Below, one piece after another: positions 2 to 7,632 of a stretch of 7,632 bases of DNA (its first letter is position 1; every line of letters starts with the position of its first letter). The notes below the pieces were generated by a model, which worked only from the letters and a program-made list of their open reading frames with translations, was not told the DNA's origin and ran no database searches. The translations under genes and the position numbers were made by a program. The DNA lies in NCBI GenBank assembly GCA_903913345.1, contig CAIWLA010000662.1, forward strand, positions 1-7,632. Reading direction: 5' to 3'. Source of the stretch: an uncultured Magnetococcales bacterium (lineage in GTDB: Bacteria; Pseudomonadota; Magnetococcia; Magnetococcales; Magnetaquicoccaceae).

Positions 2-715
2 CGGGAGGCAACCGAACCGACCATCCTGATTGAACTCGACCTGCGCCTCCCGATGGCGGGCGCGGAGAGATCCGTCACCTATCATCTTGAAATCACACGG
101 GATGGCCACAAAACGGTCGTGGCACGGGAGATCGTCTGCTGTCAACCCGATCACCATGGCCATCCCTTCCACTGCCTGGATTTCAACCGAGGCAGCGGCT
201 ACGCCATTGTCAATGAGGGGCATTTCAACCAGAAGACAAGAAAAATAAAATATCGGAACAGGAGATTGGACAGGTCTGACCAGTTGGCTGTTCAGAGCCT
301 CGGTCAATCTCTGCGTTTCCCGATGGCCCACCACCTGCGGCAACAGATGCTCAACTGGCATGTCGCCGCTTTTTATAGCGACGCCACGGTGTTGACTCAA
401 TATCGCCATCCGGTTCCCCATCCCCTTTTGTGTCTCAAATGGCCGGAAAGGCCACATCCGCCTCAACAGCTCCGGGCCACGCTCGACACCTTTCGGGCCT
501 ATGCCCAACGGGGCGGACAGCTTCTGGTGGCAACCCATTCACCCGAATTGTTGGAGGCCGCCCGGATAGAAGAGGTTTTCTGGCTGAACAAGGGACCAAA
601 CGACTCGCACATTTTTCGTGCGGCGGACGATTCACAACTGGTTGCCTATGCGCGGGAGGGGGACGGATTGGGATTTTTGTGGAGGCACGGCTTTTTTCTG
701 GCACCCAGGCCCTGA
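2..715 (+). CDS. C-terminal part of an AAA_21/RecF-like ATPase, internally deleted, probably a non-functional remnant; 5' end outside window
   Basis: The frame is open from the left edge, so the ATG at 53 is probably internal. Read from nt 2 it gives a beta-rich opening, then a stretch (QSLGQSLRFPMAHHLRQQM) like the middle of predicted ATPases of the COG4637/AAA_21 group. It ends with a typical C-terminal segment: FRAYAQRGGQ, the THSP motif (nt 533-544), EEVFWL and GDGLGFLWRHGFF. In the relatives I remember, the block between these halves holds the lid, an SDGT-type signature and a Walker B ending LLCxEEPE. Here nt 360-420 jump almost directly to HPLLCLKWPE, so roughly 100 residues seem missing in frame and the catalytic EE is replaced by KW (nt 437-442). 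No stop or frameshift interrupts the frame. If the family comparison is right, ATP hydrolysis is unlikely. The Walker A part would lie upstream, outside the window. The alternative is a divergent but functional subfamily. Confidence 0.62.
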   Translation, partial: REATEPTILIELDLRLPMAGAERSVTYHLEITRDGHKTVVAREIVCCQPDHHGHPFHCLDFNRGSGYAIVNEGHFNQKTRKIKYRNRRLDRSDQLAVQSLGQSLRFPMAHHLRQQMLNWHVAAFYSDATVLTQYRHPVPHPLLCLKWPERPHPPQQLRATLDTFRAYAQRGGQLLVATHSPELLEAARIEEVFWLNKGPNDSHIFRAADDSQLVAYAREGDGLGFLWRHGFFLAPRP

Positions 716-733: not shown

Positions 734-743
734 AAAAATGGAG
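725..743 (+). repeat. Direct repeat copy 1, covering the tRNA-Gly 3' end
   Basis: CCGTTTTTTAAAAATGGAG reappears at 879-895 with only a two-base shorter A run. The last five bases (TGGAG) are the complement of the tRNA 3' terminus: CCA, discriminator base and last acceptor base. Homopolymer content lowers its significance, but the matching CCG and TGGAG ends on both copies, 154 bp apart, make coincidence less likely. Confidence 0.45.
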
Positions 744-812
744 CGGGCGAGGGGAATCGAACCCCCGCCTTAAGCTTGGGAAGCTTAGGCCCTGCCATTA
801 GACGACGCCCGC
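739..812 (-). tRNA. tRNA-Gly (anticodon CCC)
   Basis: Read on the minus strand the 74 nt fold as a complete cloverleaf. The acceptor stem GCGGGCG pairs with CGCCCGC. The D arm is GTCT/GGGC with two G-U pairs and an AATGGCA loop. The anticodon stem TAAGC/GCTTA has loop TTCCCAA (anticodon CCC, window positions 778-780). The variable loop has four bases, and the T arm has five pairs with loop TTCGATT. The discriminator base is U and CCA is encoded (739-741). It reads GGG glycine codons. It is transcribed from the promoter at 828-855, divergent from the FmdE-like gene. Its 3' end faces the degraded ATPase gene, the side on which an element integrating into a tRNA gene would lie. Confidence 0.97.
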
Positions 813-3926: not shown

Positions 3927-6473
3927 ATGGCTGTTGCACACAACATAAGGCAACCATCCATGACGACAATCCATTTTGGTACCACCAAACCCATTGCCCT
4001 GTGGAACCGGGCGATTCAAACCGACTTCAAGACCTTTTTCCTGAACCTGGCCGAGGGTGCCCTCCACCTGACCACGCATGAGTGGAAAGAGGCGGCCAGC
4101 AATGCCCTGGAGGCACTGTCTGCCATCGGACTCGCTCCGGACGACTGCGGGGCACGGGCCTGGCTGTTGATTCATCGTGCCCTGACGGAGGCGGTCTTCC
4201 AGCTGGCCGAAGAGAGTGCCCTCTCCTCTCCCCAGCCTCTGATCGACCCGGAAAGCTGGGTGGCCTCTCTTGAATTGGACCAAACCCTGGAACAACACCC
4301 GTTCAGTCTGGATCCCCATTTTTTTCTCCATCCCGAACGCTGTCCCCTTTTGGCCCATCTGGATCGCCCCCTGCGGCATTGGCTGGAGGCCAACGGCCAT
4401 GATCCGGCTCGGGCCAGGGCCATCAGCCAACGTCTGCCCAGTTATTTTGTCTGCGCGCTGAACCATCAATGGCGCAAAAAACCGGAGGAGTATCTCTGTC
4501 TGCAACAGGTCGTGGAGACCCCCTTCACCCAGGCCGCAGAGCGGGAACAGGGGTGGAACCACTATCGGGCATGGTTGCAAAAACAGGTGGATGAACCTCT
4601 ATTGGGTGGCCCTTTCTCCTTGCGCACCCTCCATATCCCTCTGCGCGGCGGCACCAGTGGACCTTGTCAGCACCATACGGAGTCCGGTGACTGGCACCCG
4701 TGCACCCTAGTGGTCGATCTGCACACCGCGTTGATGGATTGGGTACACGAGGCCCATCCCGGTGATGCCGTCCGACTGTTGTGTGGGGGAGCGGGAACGG
4801 GCAAGACCACCAGTGCCAAACTCTTTGCCGCCGCCGTGGCCGGTGAGGGGACCATACCCGTTTTGTTCATCCCGTTCCATCTGTTGCCAGGGCCGCTGGA
4901 TCTGGTCCAGGCGGTCAAGGCGTTTGTCGCCGCCGATCCCTATTGTCACCGTTACAGTCCATTGGAGGAGAGAGAGGGCCAGGAACGGCTGTTGCTTATC
5001 CTGGATGGCTTGGAGGAGTGGGCGATGCATCATGCAGAGGCCACCGTGGCCTCCCGGCAATTTGTGGAGGCGGTATGGCAGACCACGGACCAATTCAACC
5101 AACGGGAGAGCCGTTTGCAGGTATTGATCACCGAGCGTACCCCCCTCTGTTGTGCCAGTACCGACCTGTTTCGCCTGCCTGGGCAGATGATCCACCTGCT
5201 TTCCTACCATCCAGAAGGGGAATCCCATGGCCAACCGGATCCGGATCCGGTGTGGCGGGTGGACCAACGACCGTTGTGGTGGGCCGCTTATGCCCAGGCC
5301 AAAGGCGAGCCGGAATCCGACCGACTGGCCCCCTTCCAGATGGATGAACTGGCGGAGATCTCTGCCCATCCCCTGATCAACCATTTGCTTGCGCTGTGGA
5401 TTGAAGAGGGTCGTCCCGGTTTGACCCAGGAGAAGGGATGCCATCTCTTCTACCAGGAGGTTCTCTCTGCCCTGTTCAAACGGTCGTATGCAGGCGGACG
5501 CAATCCGGCCACCAGGGGACTGGAAGAGGTGCCGTTTGCCCGCCTGTTGGAGGCGGTGGCGACGGCGGTTTGGCATGGTCATGGCTGGACGGCCACGATA
5601 ACCGAGATGGAGACTTATTGTCGGCCCCTTTGGCCGCCAACCCGCACAGGCCGTCCCGGTCCGGGTTCCAGGGAGGATATTGTGCGGCTGTTGACCGCCT
5701 TTTGTTTTCGCATGGCCGGTTTTAATCCCAGTGGTGAAGAGGCGTTTGCCTTTCTTCATCATCGTTTTGCCGAATTTTTTGTGGCCCGGCGCGTGGTCCG
5801 TTTGCTCCATCAAATGAGCAACCAGCTCAAACGATTTCGGGCCAATTCCGACCAGGGGTGGAGCGAAACCACGGCCCTGCTCCATTGGCTTGACCTGTGC
5901 GGTCCCACCGAACTGGATGAGGGGATTTTTCTCTTTTTAGGTCGAGAGTTGGCCCTGTATTCGCCACGGACCGTCTGGGGATGGCAAAAGCAGGTGGCGC
6001 ATCTCCTTGGTCATCTCTTGAAGAGTGGTTTGCCCATGGCCAGACGGGGCATGACCAGCCACAAGCGGATGGAAAGGGAGGCGCGTCATGCCGAACTGGC
6101 GTTGCTGGCCGTCCTGAACGGAGCGGCCCGCCACACCGGTCGCCGATCACCCAGATGGGTGGGGGAGGCAACGGCCTTTGGGAGTTGGCTCCACCGTCTG
6201 CGGCGGCAACGCACCCTCTCCGATCCGGGCAGTCGGGCGTTGGCCTGGCTGGGTTATCTGGATCTGTCCGGGGTGGTGTTGCGTTTGGCCGATCTGTTCG
6301 GGGCCGATTTGCAGAATACGGACCTGCGCGGGGCTGATCTGTACTGGGCCAATCTGGGCCAGGCCAATCTACAGGGGGCCGATTTGCGGGGAGCCAATCT
6401 GGAAAAAACCAATCTGGAGGGTATCCAGCGACAGCATGCCAAAGGGCTGGCGGTCGAAAAGGGATCGTCCTGA
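3927..6473 (+). CDS. STAND/NACHT-type NTPase with C-terminal pentapeptide repeats; bacterial NLR-like candidate
   Basis: An 848-residue soluble protein without a signal peptide or membrane segment. Residues 1 to about 260 form a mostly helical region I cannot assign to an effector family. Walker A is G287-G-A-G-T-G-K293-T294. Walker B is LLLIL-D360-G-L-E363-E364, close to the NACHT form hhhDGhDE. A sensor-1-like strand reads VLI-T402-E-R404. F609-L-H-H-R-F-A-E-F-F-V-A620 matches the helix that closes NACHT modules (F-H-xF-EF-A). Nine consecutive pentapeptides, A(D/N)LxG type, occupy 788-832, with two poorer ones at 778-787. STAND proteins are ATP-driven switches; NACHT members serve bacterial antiphage defence, eukaryotic innate immunity or signalling. 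A sensing role for the repeats and an effector role for the N-terminus are inferences. It appears transcriptionally separate: palindromes on both sides and its own terminator. Numbering is from ATG 3927 (GGGGG five bases upstream, inside the palindrome); ATG 3960, with AAGG nine bases upstream, is an equally plausible start and would remove 11 residues. Confidence 0.85.
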   Translation: MAVAHNIRQPSMTTIHFGTTKPIALWNRAIQTDFKTFFLNLAEGALHLTTHEWKEAASNALEALSAIGLAPDDCGARAWLLIHRALTEAVFQLAEESALSSPQPLIDPESWVASLELDQTLEQHPFSLDPHFFLHPERCPLLAHLDRPLRHWLEANGHDPARARAISQRLPSYFVCALNHQWRKKPEEYLCLQQVVETPFTQAAEREQGWNHYRAWLQKQVDEPLLGGPFSLRTLHIPLRGGTSGPCQHHTESGDWHPCTLVVDLHTALMDWVHEAHPGDAVRLLCGGAGTGKTTSAKLFAAAVAGEGTIPVLFIPFHLLPGPLDLVQAVKAFVAADPYCHRYSPLEEREGQERLLLILDGLEEWAMHHAEATVASRQFVEAVWQTTDQFNQRESRLQVLITERTPLCCASTDLFRLPGQMIHLLSYHPEGESHGQPDPDPVWRVDQRPLWWAAYAQAKGEPESDRLAPFQMDELAEISAHPLINHLLALWIEEGRPGLTQEKGCHLFYQEVLSALFKRSYAGGRNPATRGLEEVPFARLLEAVATAVWHGHGWTATITEMETYCRPLWPPTRTGRPGPGSREDIVRLLTAFCFRMAGFNPSGEEAFAFLHHRFAEFFVARRVVRLLHQMSNQLKRFRANSDQGWSETTALLHWLDLCGPTELDEGIFLFLGRELALYSPRTVWGWQKQVAHLLGHLLKSGLPMARRGMTSHKRMEREARHAELALLAVLNGAARHTGRRSPRWVGEATAFGSWLHRLRRQRTLSDPGSRALAWLGYLDLSGVVLRLADLFGADLQNTDLRGADLYWANLGQANLQGADLRGANLEKTNLEGIQRQHAKGLAVEKGSS
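3947..3950 (+). promoter_or_regulatory. Possible ribosome binding site (AAGG) for the alternative start at 3960
   Basis: AAGG stands nine bases before the in-frame ATG at 3960. That start would put translation initiation clear of the G/C palindrome, whereas ATG 3927 would begin five bases after it. Sequence alone does not settle which is used. Confidence 0.4.
6288..6422 (+). repeat. Pentapeptide-repeat coding array (nine 15-bp units)
   Basis: Nine in-frame 15-bp units encode ADLFG, ADLQN, TDLRG, ADLYW, ANLGQ, ANLQG, ADLRG, ANLEK and TNLEG. The central Leu with Ala or Thr two positions before it is the rule for a right-handed quadrilateral beta-helix. Nine units make a little over two coils. 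The DNA repeats GCC-(GAT or AAT)-CTG with drift, so this is an old, coding repeat and not a recent tandem expansion. Confidence 0.92.
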
Positions 6474-6485
6474 TCCCTTTTTTTT
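6457..6485 (+). terminator. Intrinsic terminator overlapping the stop codon of the NACHT gene
   Basis: AAAAGGGATC (6457-6466) pairs perfectly with GATCCCTTTT (6472-6481) across the loop GTCCT, and eight T run from 6478 to 6485. The stop TGA (6471-6473) lies at the loop and stem edge, so the last four codons form the 5' arm. The form and T run are those of a strong Rho-independent terminator for plus-strand transcription. Confidence 0.88.
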
Positions 6486-6490
6486 ATTGC

Positions 6491-6575
6491 GGGTCCAGGG
6501 GGATCATCCCCCTGGTGGGGTCCGGGGCGAAGCCTAAGTCCATTTACCGGGGGAAATAATCTCCCCCGGACCCCC
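6491..6575. repeat. Nested inverted-repeat cluster between convergent genes
   Basis: Hairpin A is CCAGGGGGA (6495-6503), loop TCA, TCCCCCTGG (6507-6515). Hairpin B is CCGGGGGA (6547-6554), a seven-base loop, TCCCCCGG (6562-6569). The unit GGGTCC(A/G)GGGG occurs three times: at 6491 and 6518 on plus, and inverted near 6564-6574. The outer copies form a larger inverted repeat enclosing the whole element. It fills the gap between the convergent stops at 6473 and 6580. No T run follows the hairpins, so it looks like a dispersed repeat and not the main terminator. Confidence 0.75.
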
Positions 6576-6579
6576 ATCA

Positions 6580-7632
6580 TTATTTCTTGGGTGCTTCCTT
6601 TTTGGGTGTCTCTTTTTTCGGAGCCTCTGTTTTGGGTGGTTCTGTCTTGGGCGGTTCGGGTTCCGGGGTGACGCTGGGATCCTCGCCCAACACCTCCTGC
6701 AAGATCCATTCATACCGTTGCCGGGCCTCTTTGAGGATGGCCTCCACCTCTGCCTGTTGGGACGACATGCTGAAGTAGGCCTTTCCAAACAGAGACATGG
6801 CCTTCAAGGCACTGAGTTTTTTAAACGCGCCCCAGGCCATCACCTTGTGGGCAGCCGGGTGGCCGGCCAGACGACCGTAGGCCTGCACACATTTTTCCAC
6901 ATCGCCCATTTCATAGATGCCCATGGCCAAAATTTTACCGGCCATGGAGTTGCCCCGCATGAATCGACAGGCTTTGATCAGCAAAGGCTCCCGGCTTTTG
7001 GCAAATTTGGTCCGATGCACCAGTTTGACGACCAGGATTTCACCCGCATCGCTGCCATCGCTGATATATTTTTCCAGGATGACCACCACGGCGTTGATAT
7101 CCGCCACGCGGGTCAGTTCCAGGGCGAGGATGGCCGAGGCCTTGGCATTGTTTTTACAGAAGGAGAGGCCGCGCACCATCGGCTCGACCCCCACATCCTT
7201 GCGATTGGCCACCCCGGAGGCCAACGCGACGATGCCGGGGGAAGAATCATCGAGCAGATTCATCGCCTCCAGCATTTGTTCCAGGCTCCCTTTGCGCATG
7301 ATTTCCATGGCCCACATCAATTCGGCATCGGGTTGACCCCGTGGTGCGGCGGCAATGGTGCGAATCATGTGATTGACCGTCCCCTGTTCGGCAATCCCCT
7401 TGGCCAATGCCTCATAGGCCGTCGGACTGATGGTGGCGTAACGCAGGGCCTCGATCAACGGATTGACCCCACGCTGGGCGACAATACCGGCCACCAGATC
7501 CTCGACCAGATCCCGTCGGTTGCTCACTTTGCTCAAGGCTTCCAACAGGGAGGGGGGCTTGGCATCCTTGTGGTTCAGGATGGCGGTCACCAGTCGTTGC
7601 TGTTTGTCCAGTTCGTTTTTGACCTTGTCCAA
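6580..7632 (-). CDS. Uncharacterised alpha-helical repeat protein with Pro/Lys/Glu tail; 5' end outside window
   Basis: The frame is open to the right edge. The first codon seen is TTG, so the true start is probably beyond the window; residues here are counted from it. I do not recognise the family. Residues 14-296 divide into about nine units of 30-35 residues, most beginning L-A-x-G-I or a variant: LVAGIV (46), LAKGIA (76), LASGVA (137), LALELT (169), LAMGIY (235), MAWGAF (265). Each unit fits two helices, consistent with an alpha-alpha solenoid of HEAT/TPR-like build. Residues 297-316 form a charged helix (KEARQRYEWILQEV). The last 28 residues are a disordered tail with a period of five (PPKTE, PPKTE, APKKE, TPKKE, APKK). 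No membrane segment is visible in this part. Such solenoids usually hold protein partners; the lysine tail might contact an acidic surface, but both roles are inferred. The gene converges on the NACHT gene with 106 bp between stops. Confidence 0.8.
   Translation of the reverse strand: MDKVKNELDKQQRLVTAILNHKDAKPPSLLEALSKVSNRRDLVEDLVAGIVAQRGVNPLIEALRYATISPTAYEALAKGIAEQGTVNHMIRTIAAAPRGQPDAELMWAMEIMRKGSLEQMLEAMNLLDDSSPGIVALASGVANRKDVGVEPMVRGLSFCKNNAKASAILALELTRVADINAVVVILEKYISDGSDAGEILVVKLVHRTKFAKSREPLLIKACRFMRGNSMAGKILAMGIYEMGDVEKCVQAYGRLAGHPAAHKVMAWGAFKKLSALKAMSLFGKAYFSMSSQQAEVEAILKEARQRYEWILQEVLGEDPSVTPEPEPPKTEPPKTEAPKKETPKKEAPKK
6583..6666 (-). repeat. Low-complexity coding repeat for the Pro/Lys/Glu tail
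   Basis: The 84 bases encode PEPE, then five-residue units PPKTE, PPKTE, APKKE, TPKKE, APKK. The 15-bp period is visible in the DNA as spaced tttcggagc/ttttgggtg-like blocks. It is likely to vary in length between strains by slippage or unequal recombination. Confidence 0.8.

Follow-up and report, generated by a model that had tools for sequence, protein, structure and literature searches.

Bacterial NACHT proteins have been reported as antiphage proteins, among them a clade (clade 14) described as without readily discernible effectors (PMC12169576). The DefensePredictor report describes a further NACHT system, one whose front is enzymatic (PMC13092281), and a study of multicellular bacteria presents NACHT targets with uncharacterised N-terminal extensions and with C-type-lectin rather than pentapeptide C-termini (PMC10907252). 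Additionally, Kaur et al. 2020 (PMC7159879) describe conflict systems with sporadic NACHT in filamentous or aggregating prokaryotes. This study analysed a NACHT gene of an uncultured bacterium (assembly GCA_903913345.1) of the Magnetococcales, an order that forms magnetic particles; the window, meaning the whole stretch of DNA analysed, is the entire contig CAIWLA010000662.1 (7632 bases) from a genome assembled into 729 contigs (3.63 Mb). Among the named relatives of its proteins, the closest belong to Magnetococcales. The encoded protein joins an N-terminal helical domain (NNH3), a NACHT nucleoside triphosphatase (NTPase), a helical arm and a pentapeptide tail; residues are numbered throughout from M1 = base 3960. 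The gene is likely a defence switch. In the form favoured here, with a probability of roughly 0.55, the protein would be an NLR-like switch, held off by ADP, that forms a ring in which clustered NNH3 domains stop the infected cell.

An earlier note, made from the DNA letters, had called the N-terminal region unassigned. This part of the note has to be revised, as the first 240 residues match Pfam NNH3 (PF22735, NACHT N-terminal Helical domain 3) at E ~7e-35. The match (121.3 bits against a cut-off of 27) spans profile positions 12-213 of 213 and lies N-terminal to NACHT, with no difference seen from the catalogued domain; domain names similar to NNH3 reportedly come from the group of Kibby et al. 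(2023), which described bNACHT antiphage proteins. The note's suggestion that such N-termini recur in other NACHT proteins proved sound, PF22735 being found across relatives. Residues 1-240 modelled alone reached a mean predicted local distance difference test score of 84.4. Structure searches with the N-terminal domain returned no clear match to a solved fold, a result that excludes no enzyme class, and the covered part of the result lists of a literature search held no description of NNH3 function. No catalytic-type residue set was found conserved in NNH3, and a non-enzymatic output was chosen for this reason: the clustered helices would act by membrane disturbance or by recruitment.

The four motifs cited for a NACHT/STAND core (GGAGTGKT, LILDGLEE, TER and the FLHHRFAEFFVA helix) each occur once and in the order given, and they uphold that assignment together with a fold, predicted by AlphaFold2, that aligns best with NLRC4. 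The domain order and the intact NTPase motifs are established at the sequence level. The predicted model is confident and contains a nucleotide-binding domain, HD1 and winged helix as in NLRs; its part from NACHT to the helical arm is the one predicted to be NLR-like, with three of the four best NLRC4 alignments extending to residues 761-788 and one stopping at 666, at 12-14% sequence identity. With hmmscan, NACHT (PF05729, residues 273-360) scored 24.0 bits (E 3.8e-5) against a cut-off of 26.7, which is reached in the genome search (26.7 bits) when neighbours in frame are counted; relatives such as L073 (35.9 bits) pass it. Walker A satisfies the NACHT/STAND form GxxGxGK[ST]. The NACHT Walker B consensus is hhhhD[GAS]hDE, of which LILDGLEE keeps D349, G350 and E353 and has E instead of D at position 352. 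This D352E change is common to six sequences, the window protein and five other rows of its clade (eight rows in the alignment: the window protein and P0002-P0008), and is a conservative departure.

In animal NLRs, the matching winged-helix histidine holds ADP. Among the 82 aligned sequences, H600 is altered in three (Q in P0003, Y in P0007, R in P0008) and E353 solely in P0007, all inside the window's clade; the window copy retains K282, D349, E353, R393 and H600. These losses would fit a gene that in Magnetococcales is decaying or selfish and has no present function, as would the truncated copy in genome G022 and the G003 copy (P0003), which seems to leave the repeat frame close to its end. 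The window copy, full length with every motif intact and a confident model, speaks against such decay, which we judge very improbable.

The pentapeptide tail was said in the earlier note to replace a more usual sensor. Instead, at least five pentapeptide repeats occur in 80 of the 82 aligned sequences; the tail is therefore a family rule and not a replacement, and the family architecture is nearly fixed. One exception, P0028, ends early; the other is an NNH3-NACHT protein of Candidatus Electrothrix gigas (L095:9977-12499), in which a HisKA domain replaces the tail. Additionally, one NNH3-NACHT-pentapeptide protein (P0065) bears GAF domains at its C-terminus. The window tail scores over the PF00805 cut-off and belongs to the beta-helix group. 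MfpA and Qnr bind gyrase. The tail could accordingly be imagined as the output, for example binding DNA-acting enzymes, with NNH3 as a regulatory cap; its presence in nearly all aligned sequences would suit this, and the relatives of known structure found by profile include QnrB1 and MfpA, although the profile match is generic to the pentapeptide repeat. With just ~10 repeats in the window tail, no tail position that keeps a single polar residue at 85%, and relatives that carry HisKA instead or stop before the tail, such an output is unlikely.

A search of 5.8 billion proteins scored the 7998 candidates with the most words in common with the query and yielded 63 matches, the window protein among them. 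The first 34 all carry NNH3, and 32 of these carry PF00805, which is missing in P0009 (partial) and P0028; most of the remaining 29 span 5-14% of the query. The N-terminal 240 residues used alone gave 13 matches, all NNH3 and 12 with PF00805 (not P0009). A genome scan with one peptide pattern and one genome per species yielded 298 stretches and 200 confirmed relatives; the 80 top loci among these were retained, a best-scoring subset that is no measure of prevalence. These comprise 48 Cyanobacteriota (many filamentous genera), 7 Pseudomonadota, 6 Thermodesulfobacteriota including cable bacteria, 4 Acidobacteriota, 4 Bacteroidota, 3 Methanobacteriota (Methanothrix), 2 Myxococcota, 2 Planctomycetota, and 1 each of Chloroflexota, Armatimonadota, Bacillota and Verrucomicrobiota. 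PF22735 was present in 4 of 48 Magnetococcales genomes and in 5 of 398 in the phylum sample, those 4 included; homologues are thus patchy in occurrence and not limited to conserved core loci. In a quick tree (Shimodaira-Hasegawa-like approximate likelihood ratio test, SH-aLRT, only; midpoint root, hence no polarity), the G022 copy groups with the window's clade (9 rows in all, SH-aLRT 99), and three Methanothrix sequences group with a planctomycete sequence (SH-aLRT 96). Patchy inheritance plus some transfer is likely on these comparisons. No near-full-length relative was found in plasmids (9 records; the best covers 43% of the query, from Skermanella, at 28% identity), none of 43 phage records reached 80% of the query, and the matches listed for viral contigs, up to a limit of 600 stretches, held 1 partial match and none near full length. 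Between the window and G003, identity is 60% for the NACHT protein, 86% for a neighbouring 350-residue protein, 78% for BamD, 78% for the FmdE-like protein and 74% for HpnE.

The gene may well act alone, as proposed in the earlier note: around the 80 loci, clustering of 1127 open reading frames (ORFs; top 25 clusters in at least 3 loci) detected no partner. Each cluster was near the gene in at most 11 of the 80 loci, and none was accepted. Among the candidates set aside, a ~157-residue upstream gene (11 loci) is confined to cyanobacteria and resembles shared synteny, the ~100-residue ORFs next to it (6 loci) appear to be translations of tandem repeats, and an ABC-transporter cluster, seen at 11 loci, is 310 to 8437 bases away. 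PADLOC (E 1e-15) was used to look for defence genes around 25 NLR loci, in a random sample of 142 out of 299 ORFs of 150-900 residues. As a control, 131 of 455 ORFs were sampled from those 25 genomes, in 40 stretches whose positions were set by an arbitrary 12-base pattern; one of these stretches, L178, overlaps with locus L086, and the three ORFs taken from it lie outside the overlap. The top family count was 2/142 near the loci versus 3/131 in the control. Matched families, which are not distinct ORFs, numbered 57 versus 9, and among the 25 of the 57 listed, the near matches were mostly multiple models of PD-T4-6 and of methyltransferases. The scan leaves room for a modest enrichment of defence genes near NLR loci.

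The neighbourhood and the hosts also bear on a different role, that of a regulator of the STAND type, in the style of MalT/SWACOS, which would act in development, stress or cell aggregation and whose ring would control gene expression or a physiological partner. The cyanobacterial share of the best loci (48/80, many in filamentous genera) would suit a regulator, as would the sampled scan, in which no clear defence-gene signal was seen, and the signalling modules of relatives (GAF domains in one, HisKA in one). Such a role is nevertheless doubtful: the Pfam search gave no DNA-binding domain match in the window protein, occurrence is patchy, and the gene diverges faster than its neighbours.

A conflict role fits the lack of a detected partner, the patchy occurrence, the NLR-like predicted fold, the fast divergence and the filamentous or aggregating hosts. 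Its inferred steps are a switch between ADP and ATP, assembly into a ring, the sensing of infection and an output through NNH3. The resting protein would likely sit in an ADP-bound off state; an infection cue met by the C-terminal half is predicted to drive assembly into a ring, and the ring would cluster the helical NNH3 domains so that the infected cell is stopped. Several observations weigh against this defence switch. The sampled neighbourhood scan gave no clear defence-gene signal, PADLOC holds no model for the window protein (only TRIP13, at 0.045), and no defence assay or phage data were found. Foldseek whole-chain TM-scores to NLRs are low (query-normalised 0.22-0.35, root mean square deviation 13-25), which can happen with multi-domain chains. 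Because H600 is lost in P0003, P0007 and P0008 and E353 in P0007, the switch in these relatives may have changed or be in decay, and in the G022 copy (L026:9539-11113, -) homology ends at about residue 512, before the winged helix. The tail kind is nearly fixed, whereas Avs and animal NLRs have varied sensors. Additionally, the fast-evolving part is not the tail, since within the clade (P0002-P0008) NNH3 has the highest conservation of all segments in 6/7 comparisons (59-74% identity; in P0005 the tail is 1 point above) and HD1 the least conserved in 6/7 (28-47%; in P0007 the winged helix is 1 point below). Overall, the protein is largely catalogued and its immune reading is plausible.

A broader proposal is tentative: NNH3 might be an all-helical, non-catalytic killing domain of unsolved fold, and NNH3-NACHT-pentapeptide proteins a widespread single-gene NLR immunity of filamentous or aggregating prokaryotes, in which the tail would be a fixed docking rod and sensing would lie in the helical arm. 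NNH3-type NACHT proteins occur across bacteria and archaea, with no clear solved counterpart found for the N-terminus. If NNH3 is non-catalytic, a large uncharacterised set of bacterial NLRs would be tied to the helix-clustering outputs of plants, and the apparent single-gene form makes this idea directly testable.

Table 1. Coordinates of the gene and of the features of its product in the window.
Feature	Residues	Window positions	Strand	Basis
NNH3-NACHT-pentapeptide gene	837 aa + stop	3960..6473	+	homologue starts, DNA homology to G003
NNH3, all-helical N-terminal domain	24-221	4029..4622	+	Pfam PF22735, E 7.2e-35 to 7.4e-35
Walker A GGAGTGKT	276-283	4785..4808	+	motif search; K282 in 82/82 sequences
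Walker B LILDGLEE	346-353	4995..5018	+	D349 in 82/82, E353 in 81/82
TER, sensor arginine R393	391-393	5130..5138	+	R393 in 82/82
Winged-helix-like region		5490..5843	+	limits by eye from predicted model
FLHHRFAEFFVA helix, holds H600	598-609	5751-5786	+	H600 in 79/82
HD2-like helical region after winged helix	629-750	5844..6209	+	limits by eye from model
Pentapeptide-repeat tail, ~10 repeats	766-823	6255..6428	+	PF00805, E 1.5e-14 to 1.6e-14
Terminator-like hairpin over stop codon, then T run		6456..6482	+	12 pairs

The earlier note had placed the gene at 3927..6473. This 848-codon ORF (+) is real, and its translation more likely starts at the in-frame ATG at base 3960 than at 3927, because homologue starts and DNA conservation to G003 agree. 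Among the eight closest homologues (P0002-P0009), seven have gene-caller-predicted starts within 2 residues of this methionine, the exception being the shorter P0005, and DNA homology to G003 starts at base 3948. By eye, neither start candidate has a convincing ribosome-binding site. The terminator-like hairpin counts as weak, since the whole scan gave 2 sites where 3.6 would be expected by chance.

The FmdE-like, HpnE and BamD genes keep company in the related genomes of the genus that were compared (HpnE-BamD in 5/5; where contigs reach, FmdE in 4/5 and tRNA-Gly in 3/5). To the right of bamD, where 7 of the contigs compared end within 1.2 kb, none of 11 related loci shares window DNA except for a dispersed palindrome, and some of these loci resemble each other. 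The palindrome, which resembles repetitive extragenic palindromic elements, lies at 6490-6515 and has 66 genomic copies at up to 2 mismatches; its reversed pattern has none. The gene of the 350-residue protein (6583-7632, -) is present in 23 of 25 Magnetococcales genomes, its own included, and the protein had no match in Pfam (E 0.1) or NCBIfam (E 0.01) searches. In G003 the NACHT gene is likewise convergent to this gene, with no DNA shared left of the G003 NACHT gene; G001, G002, G004 and G006 carry other genes on the corresponding side of the gene for the 350-residue protein. The G004 copy is flanked by genes for a flagellin and a sensor kinase, and the G022 copy adjoins an HD-domain gene and is separated on its other side by one small ORF from a Sel1-repeat gene. 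At the left end, window positions 2-715 encode the C-terminal part of an ATPase (PADLOC HEC-01B, E 1.5e-59) cut by the contig start, with tRNA-Gly at 742-812 (-) to its right. DNA homology in three relatives (L132, L133, L135) stops at this tRNA, and a possible island boundary is placed there for that reason. Elsewhere, on contig C179 of G000 (L002:219-3315), a CHAT-domain ORF (219-1346) lies beside a STAND-TPR ORF of the same genome, the listed ORFs overlapping.

Compared with known systems, the window protein shares its three-part layout with immune sensors of animals and plants. It lacks a Pfam match to the CARD, PYD or LRR of the animal NLRs (NLRC4, NLRP3, NAIP5), and its NNH3 output, if non-catalytic, may be likened to that of plant coiled-coil NLRs, which kill through clustered helices. 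Avs proteins have a TPR-type C-terminal sensor, whereas the window protein has a pentapeptide tail, no TPR match (E 0.1) and no nuclease, protease or SIR2 match in Pfam; the Foldseek match to Avs4 is weak (E 7.7e-3). Alr5209, NP275, Qnr and MfpA are pentapeptide-repeat proteins, whereas here the repeats are the short tail of a large NTPase. The window protein has no nuclease N-terminus, unlike bNACHT antiphage proteins. It shares the central NACHT with that group, resembles clade 14 in lacking readily discernible effector domains and differs in its C-terminus, which is a pentapeptide tail rather than SNaCT or NCH1 (PMC12169576).
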